From positions 1-49,040 of the forward strand of contig NZ_JAQSEA010000114.1 of NCBI RefSeq assembly GCF_029946185.1: a stretch of 49,040 bases of DNA, given 5' to 3'. The notes below the pieces were generated by a model. That model was given only the letters and a program-made list of their open reading frames with translations, ran no database searches and had not been told where the DNA came from. The translations under genes were made by a program, and so were the position numbers. Shown here piece after piece: positions 2,351 through 28,358 of the stretch (positions are counted from its first letter, which is position 1; every line of letters begins with the position of its first letter). Origin of the DNA: Prosthecobacter sp. (GTDB lineage: Bacteria > Verrucomicrobiota > Verrucomicrobiia > Verrucomicrobiales > Verrucomicrobiaceae).

Positions 2351-3928
2351 ATGGAGCAAAGAACTTTATTGGTCGTCGATGAAAATGCTAAAGATCGTGG
2401 AAACACCATCAGCCAGATGCGTTGTGATTTAAATTTCAGTTATCAAGTGACTGAAGCCGGAACAGTCGCGGAGGCGTTGGCGGCAGTCGCGAAGATCCGG
2501 CCTGACTGCGTGGTTATCGATCAAAAGCTGCCGGATGCCAGCGGCCACGAGTTCCTTCTGTCTGTGAGTGATTTGCAAGGACATCTCCCCTTTCCGGTCA
2601 TTATTCTTGCCAGTGCAGGTGATCAAGAATCCGCTGTCGCCATGATGAAAGCCGGGGCGATGGACTACCTCGTCAAAGCCAACACCGCCGCCGACTCAGT
2701 GCGCATGGCGGTGAACAACGCGATTTATAAATTTCTTGGCGAACGAAAGTTCGAAGAGCAGCAGAAGGAATTAAAGCTGCTATATAATGAAACCACTGTC
2801 AGTAATGACGCCCTGCGCGCGGCCAATGCGTCGAAGGATGATTTCCTAGCGATGCTCAGCCATGAATTACGCACCCCGCTGACACCGGTGCTCTCACTGG
2901 TCTCCGCGACAGTCAATGACAAGAGCTTGTCATCAGATCTGCGTGAGACCTTTTCAATCATTCAGCGTAATGTGGAGCTTGAGGCACGGCTGATCGACGA
3001 CCTGCTGGACCTGACACAAATATCCAGTGGCCGCCTGAAGATCGACAAGTCACCGTTGGACATCAACCAGTGCATCGAGGCGGCGCTGGACATCTGCCGC
3101 GAGGGATTCGCAGAGAAGCGCATCATTGTTCATAAGGAGCTGGAAGCGGAGAAGCCTATCGTGATGGGTGAGTTCTCCCGGCTCAACCAGGTGTTTTGGA
3201 ACCTGCTCAAAAACGCCATCAAATATACCAGTCCGCACGGCCATGTTACCCTCACCACGGCCAACGATAGCCACAACTGCGTGGTCGAGATTCGCGATGA
3301 CGGCCGGGGGATCGAGCCCTCGCAGCTGCCCTCGATCTTCGGCACCTTTCAGCCGATCAAGCCGCGCCCGACGGATACAGGCATTGGTTTGGGTTTGGCA
3401 ATTGCTCGTGCCATTGTGGAAGGACACGGAGGAGAAATTTCTGCGCAAAGCGAAGGCAAAGATCAAGGCGCGGTCTTCCGCATCCGCCTGCCGCTAGCCC
3501 AGACGGAGCCGACAGCGGATGAGGTGATCGAGGGTCCTGCCGCCAACGCAACCAGGCGAGGCCGGAGCATCCTCGTCGTTGAAGACCATGATGATACACG
3601 GCGAGCGCTGTCCCGTGTGCTGCAGCGCAAAGGATATGAGGTGACGGTTGCTGGCAGCGTGGCGGCAGCGGTCCAGCAGTTTTACATCAGTGCTCCGGAT
3701 CTTGTCATTTGTGACATCGGCCTGTCGGATGGCACCGGCTGGGATCTGATGAAAAAGCTGCACCAGCAAGGGCCGGTGCGCGCCATCGCTGTAAGTGGCT
3801 ATGGCATGGAGCATGACGTGAAAAAAAGCCGTGAGGCCGGCTTCATTGAGCACATGACCAAACCGATCAACATTTCCAATCTGGAAAATACGATCGCCGC
3901 CACGCTTCAAATTGCACCCAGGCTGTAG
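2351..3928 (+). CDS. Soluble hybrid histidine kinase, REC-HK-REC
   Basis: 525 residues, ATG start. The N-terminal receiver (about 5-125) has acidic residues Asp10/Glu11, phospho-acceptor Asp57 and Lys109. A short coiled coil leads to the HisKA domain, with the H-box [15 protein letters not shown] (His171). HATPase_c follows: N-box NLLKNAIKY (Asn288), G1 DDGRGIEPSQLP and G2 GIGLGLAIARAI. A second receiver (about 406-520) has Asp455, Ser482 and Lys504 and the signature SGYGMEHDVKKSREAGF, shared with three other kinases in this window. No membrane segment is present. The N-terminal receiver suggests control by another kinase or phosphotransfer protein. Its upstream neighbour is the divergent minimal kinase. 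Confidence 0.9.
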   Translation: MEQRTLLVVDENAKDRGNTISQMRCDLNFSYQVTEAGTVAEALAAVAKIRPDCVVIDQKLPDASGHEFLLSVSDLQGHLPFPVIILASAGDQESAVAMMKAGAMDYLVKANTAADSVRMAVNNAIYKFLGERKFEEQQKELKLLYNETTVSNDALRAANASKDDFLAMLSHELRTPLTPVLSLVSATVNDKSLSSDLRETFSIIQRNVELEARLIDDLLDLTQISSGRLKIDKSPLDINQCIEAALDICREGFAEKRIIVHKELEAEKPIVMGEFSRLNQVFWNLLKNAIKYTSPHGHVTLTTANDSHNCVVEIRDDGRGIEPSQLPSIFGTFQPIKPRPTDTGIGLGLAIARAIVEGHGGEISAQSEGKDQGAVFRIRLPLAQTEPTADEVIEGPAANATRRGRSILVVEDHDDTRRALSRVLQRKGYEVTVAGSVAAAVQQFYISAPDLVICDIGLSDGTGWDLMKKLHQQGPVRAIAVSGYGMEHDVKKSREAGFIEHMTKPINISNLENTIAATLQIAPRL

Positions 3929-6534: not shown

Positions 6535-7170
6535 ATGAATACCCAAGCCGAACTTATCGACTGGCTGCACGACGTCCATGCCATCGAAAAAGCCAAAGAA
6601 GTGGCGCTGCAAAAACTAGCCTCGCATCCCCATAATCATCAAGCTCTGCGCGAGGAGGCGACGCGCCACGGCACCGAAACGCGACGCCAGGCAGAGGCAG
6701 TGGTTACCTGCCTGAAGCGGCTCGGCTCAGATCCTTCCGTACTGAAAACCATGCCGGACCGAAGGATGGACGCAGATCTCATGAAAAGCACGGGGATGAC
6801 TTTCGGAGGGGATGAACGGATCAAGGATGTTCTGAGCATACTTGTCACCGAGCATCTCCAGATCGCCCGTCATACGGTGTTGCGCAAGGGGGCGGCGCGG
6901 CTGGGCCTGCTGGATTTGGTGAGCACCTGCGATCAAATCATCGACGATGAAAAGCGGATGGCAAAATGGTTGCAGGTGAATCTGCCGGAGATCATTGCGA
7001 CTTACCTCACTCCCGACGAGGCCGATGACGGCCCGCAGGAATGCGGTCCGACCGAAAGAGATCACACTGTGCACTGGGAGTTTGCCCAACTGGCGCAGAA
7101 TGCTTCATTGTTTGGAGGGCCGCTGCCGCGATCTATCTTTGCCAGCATGCGGAACTCGTGCAGCCGTTAG
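6535..7170 (+). CDS. DUF892/ferritin-like (YciE/YciF-type) protein
   Basis: 211 residues from the ATG at 6535; in-frame ATGs at 6427 and 6481 would add up to 36 residues that do not fit the family. The start MNTQAELIDWLHDVHAIEKA matches the DUF892 N-terminus, in which a helical L-x-D-x-x-x-x-E segment opens a ferritin-like four-helix bundle. Further helices contain EEATRHGTETRRQAEAV and LVTEHLQIARHTVLRK. Metal ligands cannot be assigned with confidence. The last roughly 40 residues extend past the bundle. In enterobacteria the family (YciE/YciF) is induced by osmotic and stationary-phase stress. It ends convergently with the sigma factor gene, overlapping by 4 bases. Confidence 0.6.
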   Translation: MNTQAELIDWLHDVHAIEKAKEVALQKLASHPHNHQALREEATRHGTETRRQAEAVVTCLKRLGSDPSVLKTMPDRRMDADLMKSTGMTFGGDERIKDVLSILVTEHLQIARHTVLRKGAARLGLLDLVSTCDQIIDDEKRMAKWLQVNLPEIIATYLTPDEADDGPQECGPTERDHTVHWEFAQLAQNASLFGGPLPRSIFASMRNSCSR

Positions 7171-13671: not shown

Positions 13672-14289
13672 TCAAATCACGTCTCCATGCTGAAGAGAAA
13701 TCCCAGGCAGACTGAACTCGCTGCTGCCCATAAGGCGCATCGCGGCAAGGAATGGGCCTTGGAATGCAGATGTGGCACGTTTTGACATAGCCGCATCCAC
13801 CGTGCGGCGTTTCATTACGGATTTCGCCAGCCTGGTCAGACTGGCATCAAGTGCTTTTTGTTTGCGCAGATTCTCCTTGAGCAGGAGTTCCACATCCTCA
13901 AGCCCAAGACGGGAGGCAAGCATGGTGGCGAGTTCGGACTTCTCCACCTCATAGCAGATGAACTGACGGGCGGCGGAGATCAAGCAGACGTCATAGGTCT
14001 CGTTCCTGGCATGCGCATTGAGAAGGCTCTCACGAGCTTCGCCTTCGACCAGTTGCTTCAACCCTTCGCATCTCGGACCATCCAGTTCTTTTCCCACCAA
14101 CTTAGCAATACGCTCAAGCCTTCCGACCTGCTCCCCGCTTTCTTCCAAACGCGTATTGAACATGTCTCGCAGTTTCGGATGACAGGCTGCCTGGGCCATT
14201 TTCGTCAAAATTTTGATCAATTGTTTTTCAGTGCTGCAAAGGCTCCGCAGTTCCTGCTGTAAAAGATCTTTGAGAATATTGGATTTCAT
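13672..14289 (-). CDS. DUF892 (YciF-type) ferritin-like protein
   Basis: 205 residues from ATG at 14289; an in-frame upstream start at 14307 is possible. The N-terminal segment LKDLLQQELRSLCSTEKQLI and later helices (PKLRDMFNTRLEESGEQVGR; ISAARQFICYEVEKSELAT) match the DUF892 pattern of a ferritin-like bundle with repeated Glu-x-x-Gln/Glu helices. YciF structures bind metal in a four-helix bundle. The C-terminal 40 residues are extra. It is followed by the DUF883 gene, and is a second DUF892-type protein besides 6535-7170. Both families are stress-induced in enterobacteria, which fits the gene content here. Confidence 0.8.
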   Translation of the reverse strand: MKSNILKDLLQQELRSLCSTEKQLIKILTKMAQAACHPKLRDMFNTRLEESGEQVGRLERIAKLVGKELDGPRCEGLKQLVEGEARESLLNAHARNETYDVCLISAARQFICYEVEKSELATMLASRLGLEDVELLLKENLRKQKALDASLTRLAKSVMKRRTVDAAMSKRATSAFQGPFLAAMRLMGSSEFSLPGISLQHGDVI

Positions 14290-21893: not shown

Positions 21894-21930
21894 AAAAAAA
21901 GGGCGTGCAGTCTTTGCAGACGCACGCCCC
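21894..21930 (-). terminator. Rho-independent terminator of sigma copy 2
   Basis: On the minus strand GGGCGTGC-GTCT, tetraloop GCAA, AGAC-(T bulge)-GCACGCCC is followed by seven Ts. The hairpin is strong with a GNRA loop and starts 18 bases after the sigma stop codon. Confidence 0.9.
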
Positions 21931-21947
21931 TTGGTCAGGTCACTCAA

Positions 21948-22604
21948 TCAAGCAGCCTGCAGTGTGTGGATGGAGCTGCGGGTGCGGAAGGTCTGACGAA
22001 GCTTCTTCAAGCCAAGCTCCATCCGAGTTTTCACCGTGCCGAGCGGTGAGTGTGTGGCTTGCGCCACTTCACGCTGGCTCATACCCTTCAGGAACGCGAG
22101 CTCGATGACCTCCTTCTGGGCATCGGGCAGCAGAGAGAGATGCTCACCGAGCACACGGCCCATATCCGCCTGTTCGCACTCGGCGGCGGAGTCCTGCGTG
22201 AAGGTGTCTGCCTGCTGGATGGACTCCTCCATGCGGTCTTTGGCCCGGCCGTAGGCCATGGAACGGCGCAGATGATCAATGGCCCGGCGCTTGCCGAGTG
22301 TCATGAGCCAGGCCAGAGGACGGCCCTTGGCCGGCGAGTAATGATCGGCCTGGCGCCATAATTCATAAAAGCACTCCTGTAGGACGTCTTCTGCGGCTGC
22401 ATCGTCATTGACCGTGCGCATGATGGCGCTCTTGAGCAACCGGCGGTAGCGCTGCATCAGCGTTTCCAATGCGGTGGCATCGCGCTGCTGGATCGAGGCC
22501 ATGAGTGCTTCATCCGGTGGCTGCTGGGTGTCGACATCGAACTGGGACGACGACTCAGAGAAGGAGGTGGAAATGGATGAGGATGTGGTGGTGTGTGTTT
22601 TCAT
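21948..22604 (-). CDS. ECF-type RNA polymerase sigma factor (copy 2)
   Basis: 218 residues from ATG at 22604. Region 2 includes AAEDVLQECFYELWRQA and RPLAWLMTLGKRRAIDHLRR; region 4 includes LPDAQKEVIELAFLKGMSQ and LGTVKTRMELGLKKLRQ. It differs from copy 1 (7167-7811) mostly in the Ser/Thr-rich N-terminal 25 residues and a few substitutions (FFELW/FYELW, INEHL/GEHL-type changes). No anti-sigma is adjacent. The gene ends in a strong terminator, so it is monocistronic. The upstream 44 bases are conserved with copy 1. The two copies are directly oriented and about 14.8 kb apart. Confidence 0.92.
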   Translation of the reverse strand: MKTHTTTSSSISTSFSESSSQFDVDTQQPPDEALMASIQQRDATALETLMQRYRRLLKSAIMRTVNDDAAAEDVLQECFYELWRQADHYSPAKGRPLAWLMTLGKRRAIDHLRRSMAYGRAKDRMEESIQQADTFTQDSAAECEQADMGRVLGEHLSLLPDAQKEVIELAFLKGMSQREVAQATHSPLGTVKTRMELGLKKLRQTFRTRSSIHTLQAA

Positions 22605-22648
22605 GATGGAATGAAATACAAAAGCTCCCGACTTCCCACAACCCGAGC
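22605..22648 (-). promoter_or_regulatory. Conserved upstream block of sigma copy 2
   Basis: On the minus strand it reads CGGGTTGTGGGAAGTCG then GAGCTTTTGTATTTC, matching the block before copy 1 except at a few positions. A TCAGG-TGATG-CCTGA palindrome follows upstream at 22666-22680. The block is probably the promoter. Confidence 0.55.
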
Positions 22649-22778
22649 TGACCCCGTCCATGATGTCAGGTGATGCCTGACCCTATCAAGACCGCCTCAG
22701 GGTGCTGGAATGCTCCTCGATGAGGGAGCTGTGACCGGCCTCACACAACCCCAGCGCACTGAGGTTGCGAACTCAGCG

Positions 22779-23290
22779 CCCATCCCACCCGCATGGACAG
22801 ATGTATGAATCTGCCCCCCTCGTTAACGGCCACATTCAAGCAACGGGGCGTGACGAACGGCGGAGAAAGCAATACTGCAACCATCCGCGCTAGCTTGCAC
22901 TAAGCTACGCGAGCAAATACGAACGCATGATGACTTTGGAACCATGCTACCACGCATCCGCCAGTGTGTATCCGCTGATCTGCATCGCCACGGCATGAGT
23001 CGGCTGAAGGTCATGACGACAGTCGTGCAACTGCTGGAGACGACGCCGATCCGCGTGGGCAATGACGAGTATGCGCAGTAGGGCGGCAGCAATGGTCTGA
23101 CGGCCTTGCTCAACCGGCATGCGAGGGTGCATTCCACACAGATCACTTTTTCGCTCAGGGTAAAAGTAGCAGGCGACATCAGATCCACGTTCATGATTTA
23201 CGGCTTGCCAAAATGGTGTGTCGTTACCAGGACAACACCTCCTTAAATTCCTCGATGAAGCTGAAAGCGTGCATGAGGTGGAATCTGAAA
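22779..23290 (+). pseudogene. Decayed type IB DNA topoisomerase (poxvirus-type)
   Basis: Translated fragments in successive frames match bacterial topoisomerase IB in the right order: PIPPAWTDV-stop-ICPP (22779-22820), NGHIQATGRDERRRKQY then HPR-stop (22825-22893), SKYERMMTL (to 22938), LPRIRQCVSADL through LLETTPIRVGNDEYAQ-stop (22947-23081), GSNGLTALLNRHARVHS, HDLRLAKMV (from 23192) and PGQHLLKFLDEAESVHEVES (23227-23289). The family has Trp where the first two stops fall (TDVWICP and HPRW), so both are probably single-base TGG-to-stop changes. At least three frameshifts join the pieces. The N-terminus and the C-terminal portion with the catalytic Tyr are not found. The gene is clearly dead. 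Confidence 0.85.
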
Positions 23291-23388
23291 CGCAGACTAA
23301 GACCGATCCGGCATACTTTCACCCTGCAAGCCGTCACGCGATGCACTGCAGCCCGTGCATTACAATGACTTGCCGCGCCACATTATCC

Positions 23389-23508
23389 CTAGGTGCAGCC
23401 GCGCATGAGGAACAGAATGAGGAGGATAGGAACAGGAATACCTACGAGCCACAGCAGTACCCAACCGATCTTGCCGCTATTCCAGCGGTTAGTGTTTGTT
23501 GTTTTCAT
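23389..23508 (-). CDS. Tiny single-span membrane protein (paralogue of 24126-24248)
   Basis: 39 residues, ATG at 23508, stop at 23389. A polar N-terminus (MKTTNTNRWNS) precedes GKIGWVLLWLVGIPVPILL, a hydrophobic span ending in MRGCT. The plus-strand gene at 24126-24248 has the same plan with GKIGYALLWLLGIPLPVLI and LRG. Identity in the shared core, including G-K-I-G, L-L-W-L, G-I-P and P, supports both as real genes. It lies divergent to the CsbD lipoprotein. Function is unknown; it is an inner-membrane microprotein by prediction. Confidence 0.7.
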   Translation of the reverse strand: MKTTNTNRWNSGKIGWVLLWLVGIPVPILLILFLMRGCT

Positions 23509-23750
23509 ACCTTTACATCGTCACTGAAGGCGTGGGTGATTGTATCAAACATGCAAGTTCATCCTCAAAAGTAGAACACCGAACCTGTTGTAGCTCCCGA
23601 CACGCTGTTGCGCATGATTCCCGTGCATCCGGCGGTGAAATGGAATGCGATAAGTGGCCGAATACATGCATTCAACACCTGCGCTCCAGGGGCCGTGCAG
23701 GCACGACACCCAGCCGTGATCACGCCTCTTTCACTTAAACACTACACACC

Positions 23751-24068
23751 ATGAAAACGAACCTCAAAACCATGCTCAGTCTCCCGATTCTCGCACTCTC
23801 CCTCGCCGCATGTGAGAAACAATCAACCACCCAAGTAAGCGAAGAAACCCGGGAAAAAATTCACGAGACCGCCACGTACTCCCCCGGCCAGCTCAAGATC
23901 AAGGGCAATTGGAACGAGATGAAAGGCAAGTTGAAGCAAAAGTTTGGTGATTTGACCGATGACGACGTGATGTACGAAAAAGGCAAGGAGGACGAACTTT
24001 ATGGCCGCTTGCAGAAGAGACTAGGCAAATCCCGAGAAGAGGTGGATCGCATGTTAAACGAACTCTAA
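23751..24068 (+). CDS. CsbD-domain lipoprotein
   Basis: 105 residues, ATG start. A lipoprotein signal peptide ends in the lipobox LSLAAC (Cys21), so the mature protein should be lipid-anchored. After a Thr/Ser/Glu linker the CsbD domain runs from about 46 to 105: [26 protein letters not shown], then [20 protein letters not shown]. CsbD/YjbJ proteins are abundant general-stress proteins (sigma-B regulated in Bacillus, stationary-phase in E. coli), normally cytoplasmic; a lipobox in front is notable. The tiny membrane gene at 24126 follows by 57 bases, suggesting co-transcription. Confidence 0.88.
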
Positions 24069-24125
24069 TTTTGCGCCTATGGGCACCTTCAATTCAATAG
24101 CAAAAAACACTTACCCTTCACGATT

Positions 24126-24248
24126 ATGAAAAACACACTCATCAACAAATGGCAGAATTTGGAACAGGGCAAAATTGGTTACGCTCTGCTCTGGCTTCTG
24201 GGCATCCCCCTTCCCGTGCTGATCATTTTCTACTTTCTACGCGGCTGA
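24126..24248 (+). CDS. Tiny single-span membrane protein (paralogue of 23389-23508)
   Basis: 40 residues, ATG at 24126, TGA at 24246. An N-terminal polar part (MKNTLINKWQNLEQ) is followed by GKIGYALLWLLGIPLPVLI and FYFLRG at the end. It directly follows the CsbD lipoprotein in the same direction. The similarity to the minus-strand microprotein 0.6 kb away, conserved chiefly in the membrane span with its central G-I-P-x-P kink, argues for selection. Function is unknown. Confidence 0.7.
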   Translation: MKNTLINKWQNLEQGKIGYALLWLLGIPLPVLIIFYFLRG

Positions 24249-24290
24249 AATTAATTCGTCTTGCAGCAGAGCTTTGGCAGATTCAGGGGT

Positions 24291-27200
24291 TCATACGCTT
24301 GAGCTCCGCACTTTCAAACTCTGAGACAGCACACTGAGATCAATGGGTTTGACGAAATACTCGTCAAACCCAGCTTTACTGGCCGCCACACGATCTTCCG
24401 CGCTGCCGTAACCACTCATGGCTATCAGGAAGACGCCCTTCAAGGCTGACATCATGCGCAGCTGCCGTGCCACCTCGAAGCCGTTCATACCTGGCAGACC
24501 GATGTCCAGCAGCACGACTTCAGGTTTGAACTCTGCAGCCGCGGACAAAGCCTCCGGGCCGGTGAAAGCCGTGCATGTCTCATGCCCGCGCCGCCGCTGC
24601 AGGATGGCAAGGCTGCGCGCGGAGTCAGTATTGTCATCCACGATCAGGATTCGGCGCGGCGTTTCCCTGGCTGTATCGGCAGGCAGCTCAGGACGTAGTG
24701 GCGGTTCACGCAAAATAGGCAGACGGACGATGAATTCACTGCCTTGGCCGAGCCCCGCACTGCGCACCTCAACGCTGCCGTCGTGCAGTTTTACAATGCG
24801 TTGCACCAGTGTGAGGCCGATGCCCAGGCCTCCATGCGCACGGTCAAGCGCCCGCGTAGCCTGCACAAACAAGTCGAAGACATGCGGCAGCAGCTCCGGC
24901 GCGATGCCGATGCCGTCATCACGCACGGATACGATGACCTCCGGCGGCACCACTCCCAGACTGCGTTCTGCGCGAAGCACGATGTGGCAGCCGTCACCGC
25001 TGTATTTGCAGGCATTGCTGAGAAGGTTGCAAAACACCTGCTCCAGCCGCGTGGCGTCAGCGTTCAGATAGATCGGGTTCTGCGGCATAGCCACCGTCAG
25101 TTCCTGCTGGTGGCTGGAACAACTGGAACGCACGACGCTGGTCGCCGCCGTAAGGATGTCCTCCAGCGCCACGGGCTTCTTGCGCAGCTCGATCTTGCCG
25201 TGGGTGATGCGAGAGATGTCGAGCAGATCTTCGATCATGCGGCTCATGTTCTCGATCTGACGGACAATGATGCACTGCGCGTGCTGGCGCTCTGCGGTGC
25301 TGGCATTCTCAGCATGCATGATCTCCGCAGCATTGCGCATTGGGGCCAGCGGGTTGCGCAGTTCGTGGGCGAGCATGGCGAGAAATTCGTCTTTGGTCCG
25401 GTCTGCCCGCGCCAGCTCCTCGGCGCGTGCCACCAGGGCATTTTCCAGCAGACGGCGCCCGGTGATGTCACGCGCGATCTTCGATGCGCCGACAACGCGG
25501 CCCGTGCTGTCCCGGATGGGTGAAATTGTCAGCGAAACATCGATCAGCCGCCCATCTTTGCGGAGGCGCAGCGTTTCAAAATGTTCGACAGGCTCCCCAC
25601 TGCGGATATGACCGAGAATATGCGCCTCTTCTGCTTGACGTTCGGCAGGAATGAAAAGAGTCACCGGCTGGCCGATCACTTCAGCGGCCGCGTAGCCAAA
25701 CAGCCTCTCCGCTCCCGCATTCCAAGTCGTGATGATGCCGTTGAGGTCTTTGCTCATGATCGCATCATCCGAAGATGAAACAATGGCGGCCAGCCTGTTG
25801 GCGGCATCTTCCGCCTCGACGCGTTCAGTGATGTCTTCGACTGAGACCACGATCAGCGGCTCATTGCGAGTATTCGGAAGCCGGCAGGCCCGCATCTGCA
25901 TGACTCTGGAACCGAGGACCTCAAACGTATGACGCACTTCGAAGTGGTCGATGACGGATTCCAGCGGCAGCACCTTCTCGAGCAGCCTGCGCAGTTCCGG
26001 GATGTCCCACTGGTGGTCATTTATGTCATAGATGAGGCGGCCCAGAGTGGTGGAGGGCGTGGCTTTAAAGCATTCATAAAAGGCGCGGCTGGCAGTCCTG
26101 ATGCGCAGCTCTTTGGTCAGTACAAGCAGCGGAACACGCACGCAGGCGACGATGTCCTCGGCGTAGTCCCGGGCTTCCTGAAGTTCGAGGTTCCTGTGGT
26201 TGAGTTCGTCATTGACCGTGGCCAGCTCCTCGTTGCTGGACTGGATCTCCTCCTTGGAGGTCTCCAGTTCTTCATTCACGCTTTGCAGTTCCTCGTTGGC
26301 GGACTGTGTCTCTTCATTGGCGGACTGCAGCTCTTCATTGACCGCAGCCTGCTGCTCAATGACTGATTCCAAGTACTCGCGTGTGGCTGCCAGCTCTTGA
26401 GTCAGACGCAGCATTTCCTCTTCGGCACTGCCAGTCGTCGGCAGCGGCCTGGTCGGAGGGGCGCTGGCTGCTGCATGCTCCCCTTCATCAAAGAGCACTA
26501 CAAACCCGCCTTCACGTGTCAGGGAGTTCTTGAGCGGGATAACCTCCACAGCAATCTGACGAACGCCGCTCTCGTTTTTTACCCGCAGTCCTTCCTCCCG
26601 CACAGCACGCCCTTCCACCCCAGCACGCGTGATGGCGGCGCGCACGCCGATGAGCAAGCCCTCACGCAGCATCTTCAGCAGGTGCAGGCTCGGCGTGCCA
26701 GCCGCGGGTGCCAGGTAGGCACCGGTTTCCCCGCGAAACTGCAGGATCTCCATCCCGGCTGAGACGACCACTCCGGGCGGGGAGTATCTGGCCAGCAGCA
26801 GGCGCTCGGCATCGCGGTACAGTTCCGCATGGGGCACATCACGTGCTCTCTGCACAGGGAGCGGGCTGAGCCGGTGCTCTTCCACGTGCTCCACCGGTTG
26901 ATGTCTGCGCAGAGCGGTCGAGCCCGGACGCCGCTTAAAAATCTTGTGCTTCACATCTTCGACATCAAAGAGCTTGCGGTGAGTGCCCACGGTCTCGGAG
27001 CTGCCGAGCCAGAGACAACCACCGGGCTTCATCGCGTAATGCAGCACGGGAAAGAGCTGCCGCTGTAGCTGGGGTTCAAAATAGATGAGCAGGTTTCGGC
27101 ATGAGATTAAATCCACCCGCGAAAAAGGTGGGTCGGCCAGCGCGTTGTGCCGCGAAAAAATGCAGTGCTCACGGATCGATTTGCAAATGCGCCAGCCGCC

Positions 27201-28358
27201 CTCCTCCCGGGTGAAGAATCGCCGCAGCCGCTCGGGAGAAACATCCCGCTCAATGCTTGCCGGGTACAAGCCCTTGCGCGCCTTTTCGATGCACACCCCG
27301 TTGAGATCCGTGGCAAATAATTGCAGCTGCACGGGACTGCCCGCCGCCTCGGCGCATTCGGTGAAGACCATCGCGAGCGAATAGGCCTCCTCCCCGGTGG
27401 AACAGCCGAGAGTCCAGATGCGCAAAGGCTCATGACGCTGATGCGTGGCCAGCAGCTGTGGAAAGACGGTGGCCGCCAGCGCCTCGAACGCGTCGGGATT
27501 GCGAAAAAAACTCGTTACATTGATCAAAACATCTTGGTAGAGCGCTTCGGTCTCCCCCGGCGTGCTGCGAAGATACGCCTCGTATTCCCGCAGGGTGTCG
27601 ATCTTTTGAAGCATCATCCGCCGCGTGATGCGCCGGTGCAGCGTCTGTGCCTTGTAGTGGGTAAAGTCCACACCCATCGCGCGCCGGACAATCTGCGCGA
27701 TGCGGGCGTGCTCCGGCCCTTGCGTGGGAGCCTCCACCGCCAACTGCGGCAGCCGGGCGATGCGCGCAATCTCGTGCGCAATCTCCGCCGGCGGCAGTAC
27801 GAAATCCACACATCCTGTGGCCACCGCACTGCGCGGCATGCTGGCATGCTGCGCGCTGTCATCCTGGGCAAACACGATCCCGCCCATCGCCTTGATTTCC
27901 TCGATGCCCAGCGTGCCATCATTCGCACTGCCAGACAGCACCACACCGATGATCAGCCGACCGTCATCCTCCGCCAACGAATGGAAAAATTGATCAATGC
28001 CGTGGTGCGGAGCGCGGTTCCCCTGCTGCAGCAACTGCAACCGCCCTTTCGCAATGAGCATGTCCCGACCCGGCGGGATCACATAGACATGGTTGGCTTC
28101 GACCTCCGGTTCATCGCTCACCTGACAGACAGGCATTTGCGTGGCCCGCCCCAGAATTTCCGCCAGATTGCTGCCATGATCGGGTGACAGATGCTGCACG
28201 ATGACGAATCCCATCCCGGTATCGGCCGGAAGCGCCTGCAAAAGCTGCCGCAGTGCCTCCAGTCCGCCGGCTGACGCGCCTACCGCAACAATGGGAAAAG
28301 CCGGGGTCCGCACAGCGGGATTTGGCATTTCTTTTTGGGTTGGGTTCTCTGCGGGCAT
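24291..28358 (-). CDS. CheB-CheR-PAS-histidine kinase-REC fusion protein
   Basis: 1355 residues, ATG at 28358 (or Met11). The CheB methylesterase domain (about 20-205) has VGASAGG (Ser29), QHLSPDHGS (His56) and VVLSGSANDGT (Asp). The CheR methyltransferase (about 215-480) has LHRRITRRMM, TSFFRN, the SAM motif LGCSTGEEAYSLAM (near 314) and SCRNLLIYF. A long coiled coil (about 650-735) repeats NEELQS/NEE-type heptads. Two PAS domains follow (about 735-855 and 865-985), then HisKA FLAMLAHELRNPLAP (His998), HATPase_c (NLLSNACKY; DDGIGIAPELLP; GGLGIGLTLVQRI) and a receiver with Asp1285. All catalytic residues appear intact. No chemotaxis genes (cheA, cheW, MCP) are nearby, so it probably acts on a protein-modification cue outside flagellar chemotaxis. 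Confidence 0.93.
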   Translation of the reverse strand: MPAENPTQKEMPNPAVRTPAFPIVAVGASAGGLEALRQLLQALPADTGMGFVIVQHLSPDHGSNLAEILGRATQMPVCQVSDEPEVEANHVYVIPPGRDMLIAKGRLQLLQQGNRAPHHGIDQFFHSLAEDDGRLIIGVVLSGSANDGTLGIEEIKAMGGIVFAQDDSAQHASMPRSAVATGCVDFVLPPAEIAHEIARIARLPQLAVEAPTQGPEHARIAQIVRRAMGVDFTHYKAQTLHRRITRRMMLQKIDTLREYEAYLRSTPGETEALYQDVLINVTSFFRNPDAFEALAATVFPQLLATHQRHEPLRIWTLGCSTGEEAYSLAMVFTECAEAAGSPVQLQLFATDLNGVCIEKARKGLYPASIERDVSPERLRRFFTREEGGWRICKSIREHCIFSRHNALADPPFSRVDLISCRNLLIYFEPQLQRQLFPVLHYAMKPGGCLWLGSSETVGTHRKLFDVEDVKHKIFKRRPGSTALRRHQPVEHVEEHRLSPLPVQRARDVPHAELYRDAERLLLARYSPPGVVVSAGMEILQFRGETGAYLAPAAGTPSLHLLKMLREGLLIGVRAAITRAGVEGRAVREEGLRVKNESGVRQIAVEVIPLKNSLTREGGFVVLFDEGEHAAASAPPTRPLPTTGSAEEEMLRLTQELAATREYLESVIEQQAAVNEELQSANEETQSANEELQSVNEELETSKEEIQSSNEELATVNDELNHRNLELQEARDYAEDIVACVRVPLLVLTKELRIRTASRAFYECFKATPSTTLGRLIYDINDHQWDIPELRRLLEKVLPLESVIDHFEVRHTFEVLGSRVMQMRACRLPNTRNEPLIVVSVEDITERVEAEDAANRLAAIVSSSDDAIMSKDLNGIITTWNAGAERLFGYAAAEVIGQPVTLFIPAERQAEEAHILGHIRSGEPVEHFETLRLRKDGRLIDVSLTISPIRDSTGRVVGASKIARDITGRRLLENALVARAEELARADRTKDEFLAMLAHELRNPLAPMRNAAEIMHAENASTAERQHAQCIIVRQIENMSRMIEDLLDISRITHGKIELRKKPVALEDILTAATSVVRSSCSSHQQELTVAMPQNPIYLNADATRLEQVFCNLLSNACKYSGDGCHIVLRAERSLGVVPPEVIVSVRDDGIGIAPELLPHVFDLFVQATRALDRAHGGLGIGLTLVQRIVKLHDGSVEVRSAGLGQGSEFIVRLPILREPPLRPELPADTARETPRRILIVDDNTDSARSLAILQRRRGHETCTAFTGPEALSAAAEFKPEVVLLDIGLPGMNGFEVARQLRMMSALKGVFLIAMSGYGSAEDRVAASKAGFDEYFVKPIDLSVLSQSLKVRSSSV

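Follow-up and report, generated by a model that had tools for sequence, protein, structure and literature searches.

Two microprotein genes flanking csbD in Prosthecobacter belong to a widespread family of putative small membrane stress proteins

Two related genes on either side of csbD

The window, the whole 49,040-nucleotide stretch of Prosthecobacter sp. DNA analysed here, carries two very short genes encoding the microproteins P0001 and P0002. These flank a gene for a CsbD-domain protein (P0003), and the locus is made up of the following features:

21948 to 22661, minus strand: ECF-type sigma factor gene (Pfam Sigma70_r2, 2.9e-18; Sigma70_ECF, 6.1e-9)
23389 to 23508, minus strand: microprotein P0001, 39 aa, cysteine type, ending in Arg-Gly-Cys-Thr
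23509 to 23750, no strand assigned: intergenic region between the divergent P0001 and csbD genes, presumed site of both promoters
23751 to 24068, plus strand: CsbD-domain protein P0003, 105 aa (Pfam CsbD, E 2.3e-17)
24126 to 24248, plus strand: microprotein P0002, 40 aa, cysteine-less subfamily, ending in Arg-Gly
24291 to 28358, minus strand: CheB-CheR-PAS-histidine kinase-receiver hybrid, convergent with P0002

The first-pass annotation had described open reading frames (ORFs) of 39 and 40 codons on opposite strands, one following a csbD-like gene and the other divergent from it. Both ORFs were recovered at exactly the positions reported; P0002 starts 57 nt past the csbD stop codon on the same strand, and P0001 is divergent. 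The middle gene had also been named correctly, since P0003 matches Pfam CsbD (PF05532) at 63.1 bits, above the cut-off of 40. P0003 is a member of the CsbD family, which the microproteins are not, and its N-terminus has a signal-like stretch and a lipobox-like LAAC (read by eye). P0001 and P0002 are the only copies found in the host genome. The ECF-type sigma factor gene lies 0.7 kb past P0001, and the window also carries two sensor kinases. At another locus of the family, L084, an 84.5% identical homologue of the hybrid kinase lies 2.4 kb from the csbD-microprotein pair. Two DUF892 genes, at 6550-7008 (plus strand) and 13804-14274 (minus strand), make the window look like a stress-gene region.

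The two peptides have in common the core Gly-[Trp/Tyr]-x-x-Leu-Trp-Leu-x-Gly-Ile-Pro-x-Pro. By BLASTP they are identical at 21 and similar at 29 of 40 positions (45.8 bits), and their Smith-Waterman score of 119 is far above those of 2000 residue shuffles of P0002 (mean 24.6, standard deviation 5.2, maximum 49), so that hydrophobic composition in common does not explain the likeness. Moreover, among the 750 window ORFs of at least 20 aa, scores above 38 were obtained only for P0001 itself and P0002. The first-pass annotation, which had called the peptides twins, was thus right about their kinship and common core, but they are not a recent duplicate pair. In a tree of the family, P0002 is joined by L006, L084 and L010 (support 100/86), none of which has the C-terminal cysteine. 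P0001 sits with members of the cysteine type, in a weakly supported position (L008, 96/67; L021, 94/76); L007, the nearest to P0001 by identity, groups with L081 (97/83). The tree rests on 36 columns, most of its deeper forks are open and its bootstrap is not settled. Recent tandem duplication was rejected because P0002 falls with these three loci and P0001 elsewhere; on the evidence of the tree, the two are older paralogues, with P0002 in a well-supported cysteine-less subfamily.

Substitutions in the 75-base core were counted against the nearest relative of each gene by core identity, L007 (genome G030) for P0001 and L006 (genome G021) for P0002. P0001 and L007 differ at 14 bases, distributed 2/0/12 over the three codon positions (dN 0.047, dS 1.016), and P0002 and L006 at 13 bases, distributed 1/0/12 (dN 0.038, dS 0.943). 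With 126 cores compared in 2005 pairs, the differences divide 10589/2214/23687, a third-position excess that is somewhat inflated by the use of protein-like patterns to find the cores; median dN is 0.12 and median dS 1.16 over the 1750 core pairs for which both were computable. In L006 and L084, moreover, a csbD gene upstream (85% and 65% identical, respectively) fixes the position of the microprotein gene.

The C-terminus is equally constrained. In columns left free by the DNA search pattern, 116 of 120 distinct peptides have Leu, 113 Arg, 116 Gly and 110 Cys, and the stop codon falls at the same place in 113. P0001 has the full Arg-Gly-Cys-Thr end; P0002 ends at Arg-Gly.

As far as sequence can tell, then, P0001 and P0002 evolve as protein genes. 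The earlier proposal that conservation of the core suggests function is supported by relatives in sister genomes and by the third-position bias. A non-coding substitution pattern, which would have spoken against it, was not seen (12 of 14 and 12 of 13 differences are at third positions), nor was the peptide absent from related genomes (11 of 35 genomes of the genus have relatives). That the ORFs are chance or decayed reading frames without function is suggested by their extreme shortness and by their presence in a minority of relatives; set against this are the third-position substitutions, the fixed stop and the wide family. The substitution pattern in effect refutes this explanation, whose probability we regard as negligible.

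Breadth and novelty of the family

The family can be summarized by the pattern GKIG[WY]xLLWLxGIPxPxLLxxFLLRGCT. Because the first profile was built from P0001 and P0002 themselves, its matches elsewhere are what provide independent support for the family. Of 35 genomes searched in the genus, 11 have a relative by this two-row profile, the host's own included and a row from G024 (E 0.06, internal stop) excluded, and no member was found in 21 further genomes of the order. A 59-row profile matched 13 of 240 genomes across the phylum, again including the host's own and one from another family of the order; most genomes therefore do without it.

When GTDB species genomes were scanned with a DNA pattern, at least 117 stretches matched. 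Among the matches listed, record titles name Verrucomicrobiota, Nitrosomonas, Thiobacillus, Rhodoferax, Rhodanobacter and Thiothrix as well as Desulfuromonadales, Planctomycetota, Hydrogenedentota and others, so that Verrucomicrobiota, Pseudomonadota, Desulfuromonadales, Planctomycetota and further groups all have the microprotein family. Most letters of the core are prescribed by the scan pattern, so neither the invariance of the core nor the shares of taxa among the matches listed can be read as estimates. At an E threshold of 0.001, matches occur in 15 of the 61 genomes from the Nitrosomonas family, seven of these genomes reaching E < 1e-17. Each of 14 genomes examined whole has one or two family matches.

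Of 131 pattern loci among the matches listed, 120 were retained for neighbourhood counts; the 11 dropped comprise four overlapping window copies, six duplicate contigs and L073, a pattern match outside the family. The 59-row alignment A2 omits near-identical copies, L073, L078 and L130, together with members that have nonstandard ends (L010, L087, L030, L109, L112, L116 and L125). Apart from L073 and the duplicate L087, rows left out of A2 still count among the 120 loci and towards the column totals.

Pfam, NCBIfam, PHROGs and the PDB contain no family matching the microproteins. Neither P0001 nor P0002 has a Pfam match, and the 59 members searched against Pfam at E 0.1 gave a single one, to DUF2938 at 0.056; this and PHROG 32725 (E 0.025) were taken as chance matches. 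The peptide strings LLWLLGIP and GIPIPILL were not found printed in the literature searched. Small-ORF catalogues such as GMSC (PMC11364881), or annotated genomes, may nonetheless have entries for the family. The P0001/P0002 family is new to the searched family libraries and literature, while stress-associated small membrane proteins are a known kind.

Several members or near-members stand apart. The microprotein of L062, from a record labelled Akkermansia muciniphila, groups in the tree with members from the Verrucomicrobiaceae genus, and that of L039, labelled Deltaproteobacteria, groups with Chthoniobacterales-type rows; these placements suggest mislabelled or mis-binned MAG contigs. L112 and L125 (labelled Alcaligenaceae and Hyphomicrobiales) encode members of 23-24 aa that begin at the core and do not have the Arg-Gly-Cys-Thr end. 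In the Nitrosomonas family, L162, L163, L165, L167, L168 and L171 encode peptides of about 25 aa, either shorter relatives or look-alikes, with the core AWLLGVP (AWLLEVP in L167) and E values of 3e-6 to 6e-4 against the family profile. Five of these six (not L168) lie just before two genes resembling the ElaB/YqjD-YqjE osmotic stress pair, which in L162 match DUF883_C (2.3e-5, under its cut-off) and Phage_holin_3_6 (1.2e-6). Neither Pfam nor NCBIfam has an entry for the L162 peptide.

Predicted membrane topology

By eye, P0001 and P0002 each have one hydrophobic stretch only. Across the family, N-terminal net charge (up to 14 residues) averages +1.8 and is negative in 1 of 120 peptides, and the charge at the C-end is +1 in 103 of 120. 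AlphaFold2, run with 59 sequences, predicted a helix at residues 9-23, a break at residue 24 and a second helix at 25-37 (pLDDT 78, pTM 0.36), with the break exactly at Ile-Pro. Foldseek found no match in the PDB for the predicted structure.

The simplest reading of these features is a single-span membrane peptide with its N-terminus inside, a kink at Gly-Ile-Pro-x-Pro and the cysteine outside. The short basic N-terminus would remain in the cytoplasm, approximately 22 hydrophobic residues would enter the membrane as a helix broken mid-way by Gly-Ile-Pro-x-Pro, and the fixed C-terminus, normally Arg-Gly-Cys-Thr, would end at the membrane surface.

The main structural rival to a single span is a re-entrant (monotopic) peptide, in which the break at Ile-Pro would leave both ends, and with them the cysteine, in the cytoplasm and one half of the peptide in each leaflet, so that it might act as a wedge or anchor. 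We consider this arrangement possible but unlikely: 22 hydrophobic residues also suffice for one crossing, no polar residue is present at the break, and proline kinks occur in membrane-spanning helices too. What keeps it in view is the predicted break exactly at Ile-Pro, the basic character of both ends, and a precedent. PglC is made re-entrant by a Ser-Pro break and basic N-terminal residues, and the same report suggests that Ile/Leu/Val-Pro motifs, in which a branched residue precedes the proline, may serve likewise (PMC6133551). The microprotein may have an arrangement of this kind, its N-terminus being basic and its break predicted at a proline motif.

Gene neighbourhood and proposed role

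The csbD gene is one of several stress-type neighbours of the family. By a home-made profile, 13 of the 120 dereplicated loci have it within 1.5 kb, where 0.16 would be expected from the density given by the Pfam profile (47 Pfam CsbD rows in about 109 Mb from 21 genomes). These 21 genomes are all known microprotein carriers, some picked after CsbD had been seen nearby, and the set serves for density and presence, not for adjacency. A directly upstream csbD in operon-like order is found in the window and five other loci, one of them a single in-frame ORF (L076); in the window, L006, L084, L047 and L116 the csbD gene ends less than 100 nt upstream on the same strand, the gap in L116 being calculated from the start position usual in the family. 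The P0001 relative in G030 has csbD and a BrkB gene divergent from it. CsbD is also present in all 21 scanned genomes with the microprotein, and in a set of 34 relatives all 8 genomes with it and 2 of the 26 without it have two or more CsbD rows (Fisher p 2.5e-6, uncorrected for kinship or genome size). The CsbD link is thus statistically real but partial, as CsbD is absent from the 1.5-kb surroundings of 107 of the 120 loci.

The CsbD proteins themselves differ in character. Those of the window, L006, L007 and L084 have a signal-like N-terminus, with lipobox-like sequences recognized by eye in L006 (IAAC) and L084 (LTAC) in addition to that of P0003, and less clearly in L007. The CsbD proteins near the microprotein in L021, L047, L059 and L116 look plain cytoplasmic. 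In L116, the microprotein copy downstream of csbD (3760-3849) has lost its C-terminal part.

This association raises the question of a dedicated membrane partner, a peptide that brings CsbD to the membrane. The closely spaced upstream csbD genes and the genome-level co-occurrence favour such a role, as does L076 (4561-4890, minus strand), where a CsbD stretch is in frame with the microprotein in one ORF and the first part scores 48.6 bits against the Pfam CsbD cut-off of 40. That part is missing the last 11 of 53 profile positions, and an internal start codon exists; this one case in one MAG may be a natural fusion, an accident, or a truncated csbD beside a separate microprotein gene. Additionally, CsbD occurs in 5 of 14 control genomes scanned for CsbD alone, including E. 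coli and B. subtilis, and most microprotein loci have no csbD nearby. The lipoprotein-like, apparently exported CsbD of the window and the cytoplasmic CsbD of L076 (if the N-terminus is inside) are inconsistent with a single common CsbD-binding face. Direct CsbD binding is possible, but the geometry conflicts, and a dedicated partnership is on balance improbable. A bolder proposal is that the CsbD stress response has a further, membrane-bound half and that this family supplies it. The helix-break-helix peptide, which may be monotopic, would then dock CsbD, or a complex containing it, on the inner membrane under stress; it would occasionally be an operon partner of CsbD and in one case a fusion, and the cysteine-less subfamily of P0002 would have become tied to exported lipoprotein CsbDs. 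We hold this to be a long shot. CsbD occurs in many bacteria and is not known to have an assigned biochemical role. In group B Streptococcus it has been reported to aid bile-salt resistance (PMC10294668).

Other neighbours widen the association with stress genes. Thirteen of the 120 loci have a DUF892 gene within 1.5 kb, against 0.13 expected (38 rows). In Thiobacillus denitrificans the microprotein gene comes after a KatE-like gene, and Brevifollis gellanilyticus carries a microprotein gene as well. In a raw tally without a random-position control, 45 of 120 loci have a CsbD, DUF892, BON/DUF4142/PRC, KatE-like or 17M-like neighbour and 75 have none of these; adding the threonine-aldolase-like and PutA genes of Chthoniobacterales and kin brings the count to 59. 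Neighbour clusters were named from sequence, and Pfam tallies and spot checks agree with the names: among the matches listed for the 224 nearest ORFs are DUF892 (10), catalase (6), BON (at least 5), Beta_elim_lyase (13) and Pro_dh (8). Since related soil MAGs supplied many of the loci, the neighbour counts are not independent.

The 118 upstream regions yielded no common promoter motif, known-type motifs being at chance and k-mers consisting mainly of ribosome-binding and start-codon words. A dyad present in approximately 11-13 regions, compared with 0-1 in shuffles, was set aside as mostly coding sequence of upstream catalase genes. A sigma-70-like site on the minus strand before P0001 (23568-23539) is likewise at chance, with one found and 0.8 expected. 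With no promoter motif above chance, control by an ECF-sigma regulon is unsupported.

A mobile element was considered and rejected: no match was found in 72,556 plasmid or 50,697 phage records, nor, by pattern, in viral contigs. The same searches bear on whether P0001 and P0002 are copies of a small membrane toxin from a type I toxin-antitoxin pair, comparable to TisB or Hok. Size, hydrophobicity and basic ends would fit such a toxin. In addition to the plasmid, phage and viral results, the occurrence of one or two copies per genome, conservation across phyla and the stress-gene neighbourhood all argue against it. Furthermore, no Rfam family matches within 21900-25400, a search that bears on an overlapping antisense RNA and covers described RNAs only. 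A toxin is thus very unlikely.

The reading that we favour, with some confidence, is that P0001 and P0002 are both translated and belong to a widespread but unprofiled family of small stress proteins of the inner membrane, which act on the membrane or on a membrane partner. Selection on the coding sequence, family breadth, the fixed C-terminus and the neighbourhood can be read from the sequences; from these we infer translation, membrane location and topology, induction by stress and mode of action. The microproteins would be made together with the general-stress genes CsbD, DUF892, BON, DUF4142 and catalase, and during stress they would probably alter the membrane or bind a larger membrane protein. 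The usual way for small proteins to act is to modify a larger protein or complex (PMC5437024), and small membrane proteins have been tied to stress (PMC7549839).

Several known systems are of this general kind. The Pmp3/YqaE/RCI2 proteins (UPF0057) are likewise small, membrane-located and stress-linked; RCI2 proteins are described as stress-induced small hydrophobic proteins with two transmembrane segments (PMC7835403). Unlike Pmp3/YqaE, which have two spans, P0001 and P0002 have the one stretch, and UPF0057 was not matched among the Pfam results for P0001, P0002 or the 59 members. To our knowledge, E. coli YohP has neither the Gly-Ile-Pro-x-Pro core nor the Arg-Gly-Cys-Thr end. YohP and YkgR (27 and 33 aa) are small, membrane-located and stress-linked, a likeness drawn from their description (PMC7549839). 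In Salmonella, the CsbD-like YjbJ and YqaE are among the small ORFs controlled by sigma-S (RpoS), which places the microproteins in similar company; the family itself is not described in the available part of that report (PMC5437024).

These observations show that Pfam and NCBIfam can lack a family whose conservation extends across phyla; a possible reason is gene length, which is mostly 30-60 codons. Most members have a C-terminal cysteine, through which topology is easily measured, and the role of the microprotein, so far without assignment, is now testable. Its position beside CsbD, DUF892, BON and catalase genes in unrelated phyla offers a handle on the membrane effects of stress islands.
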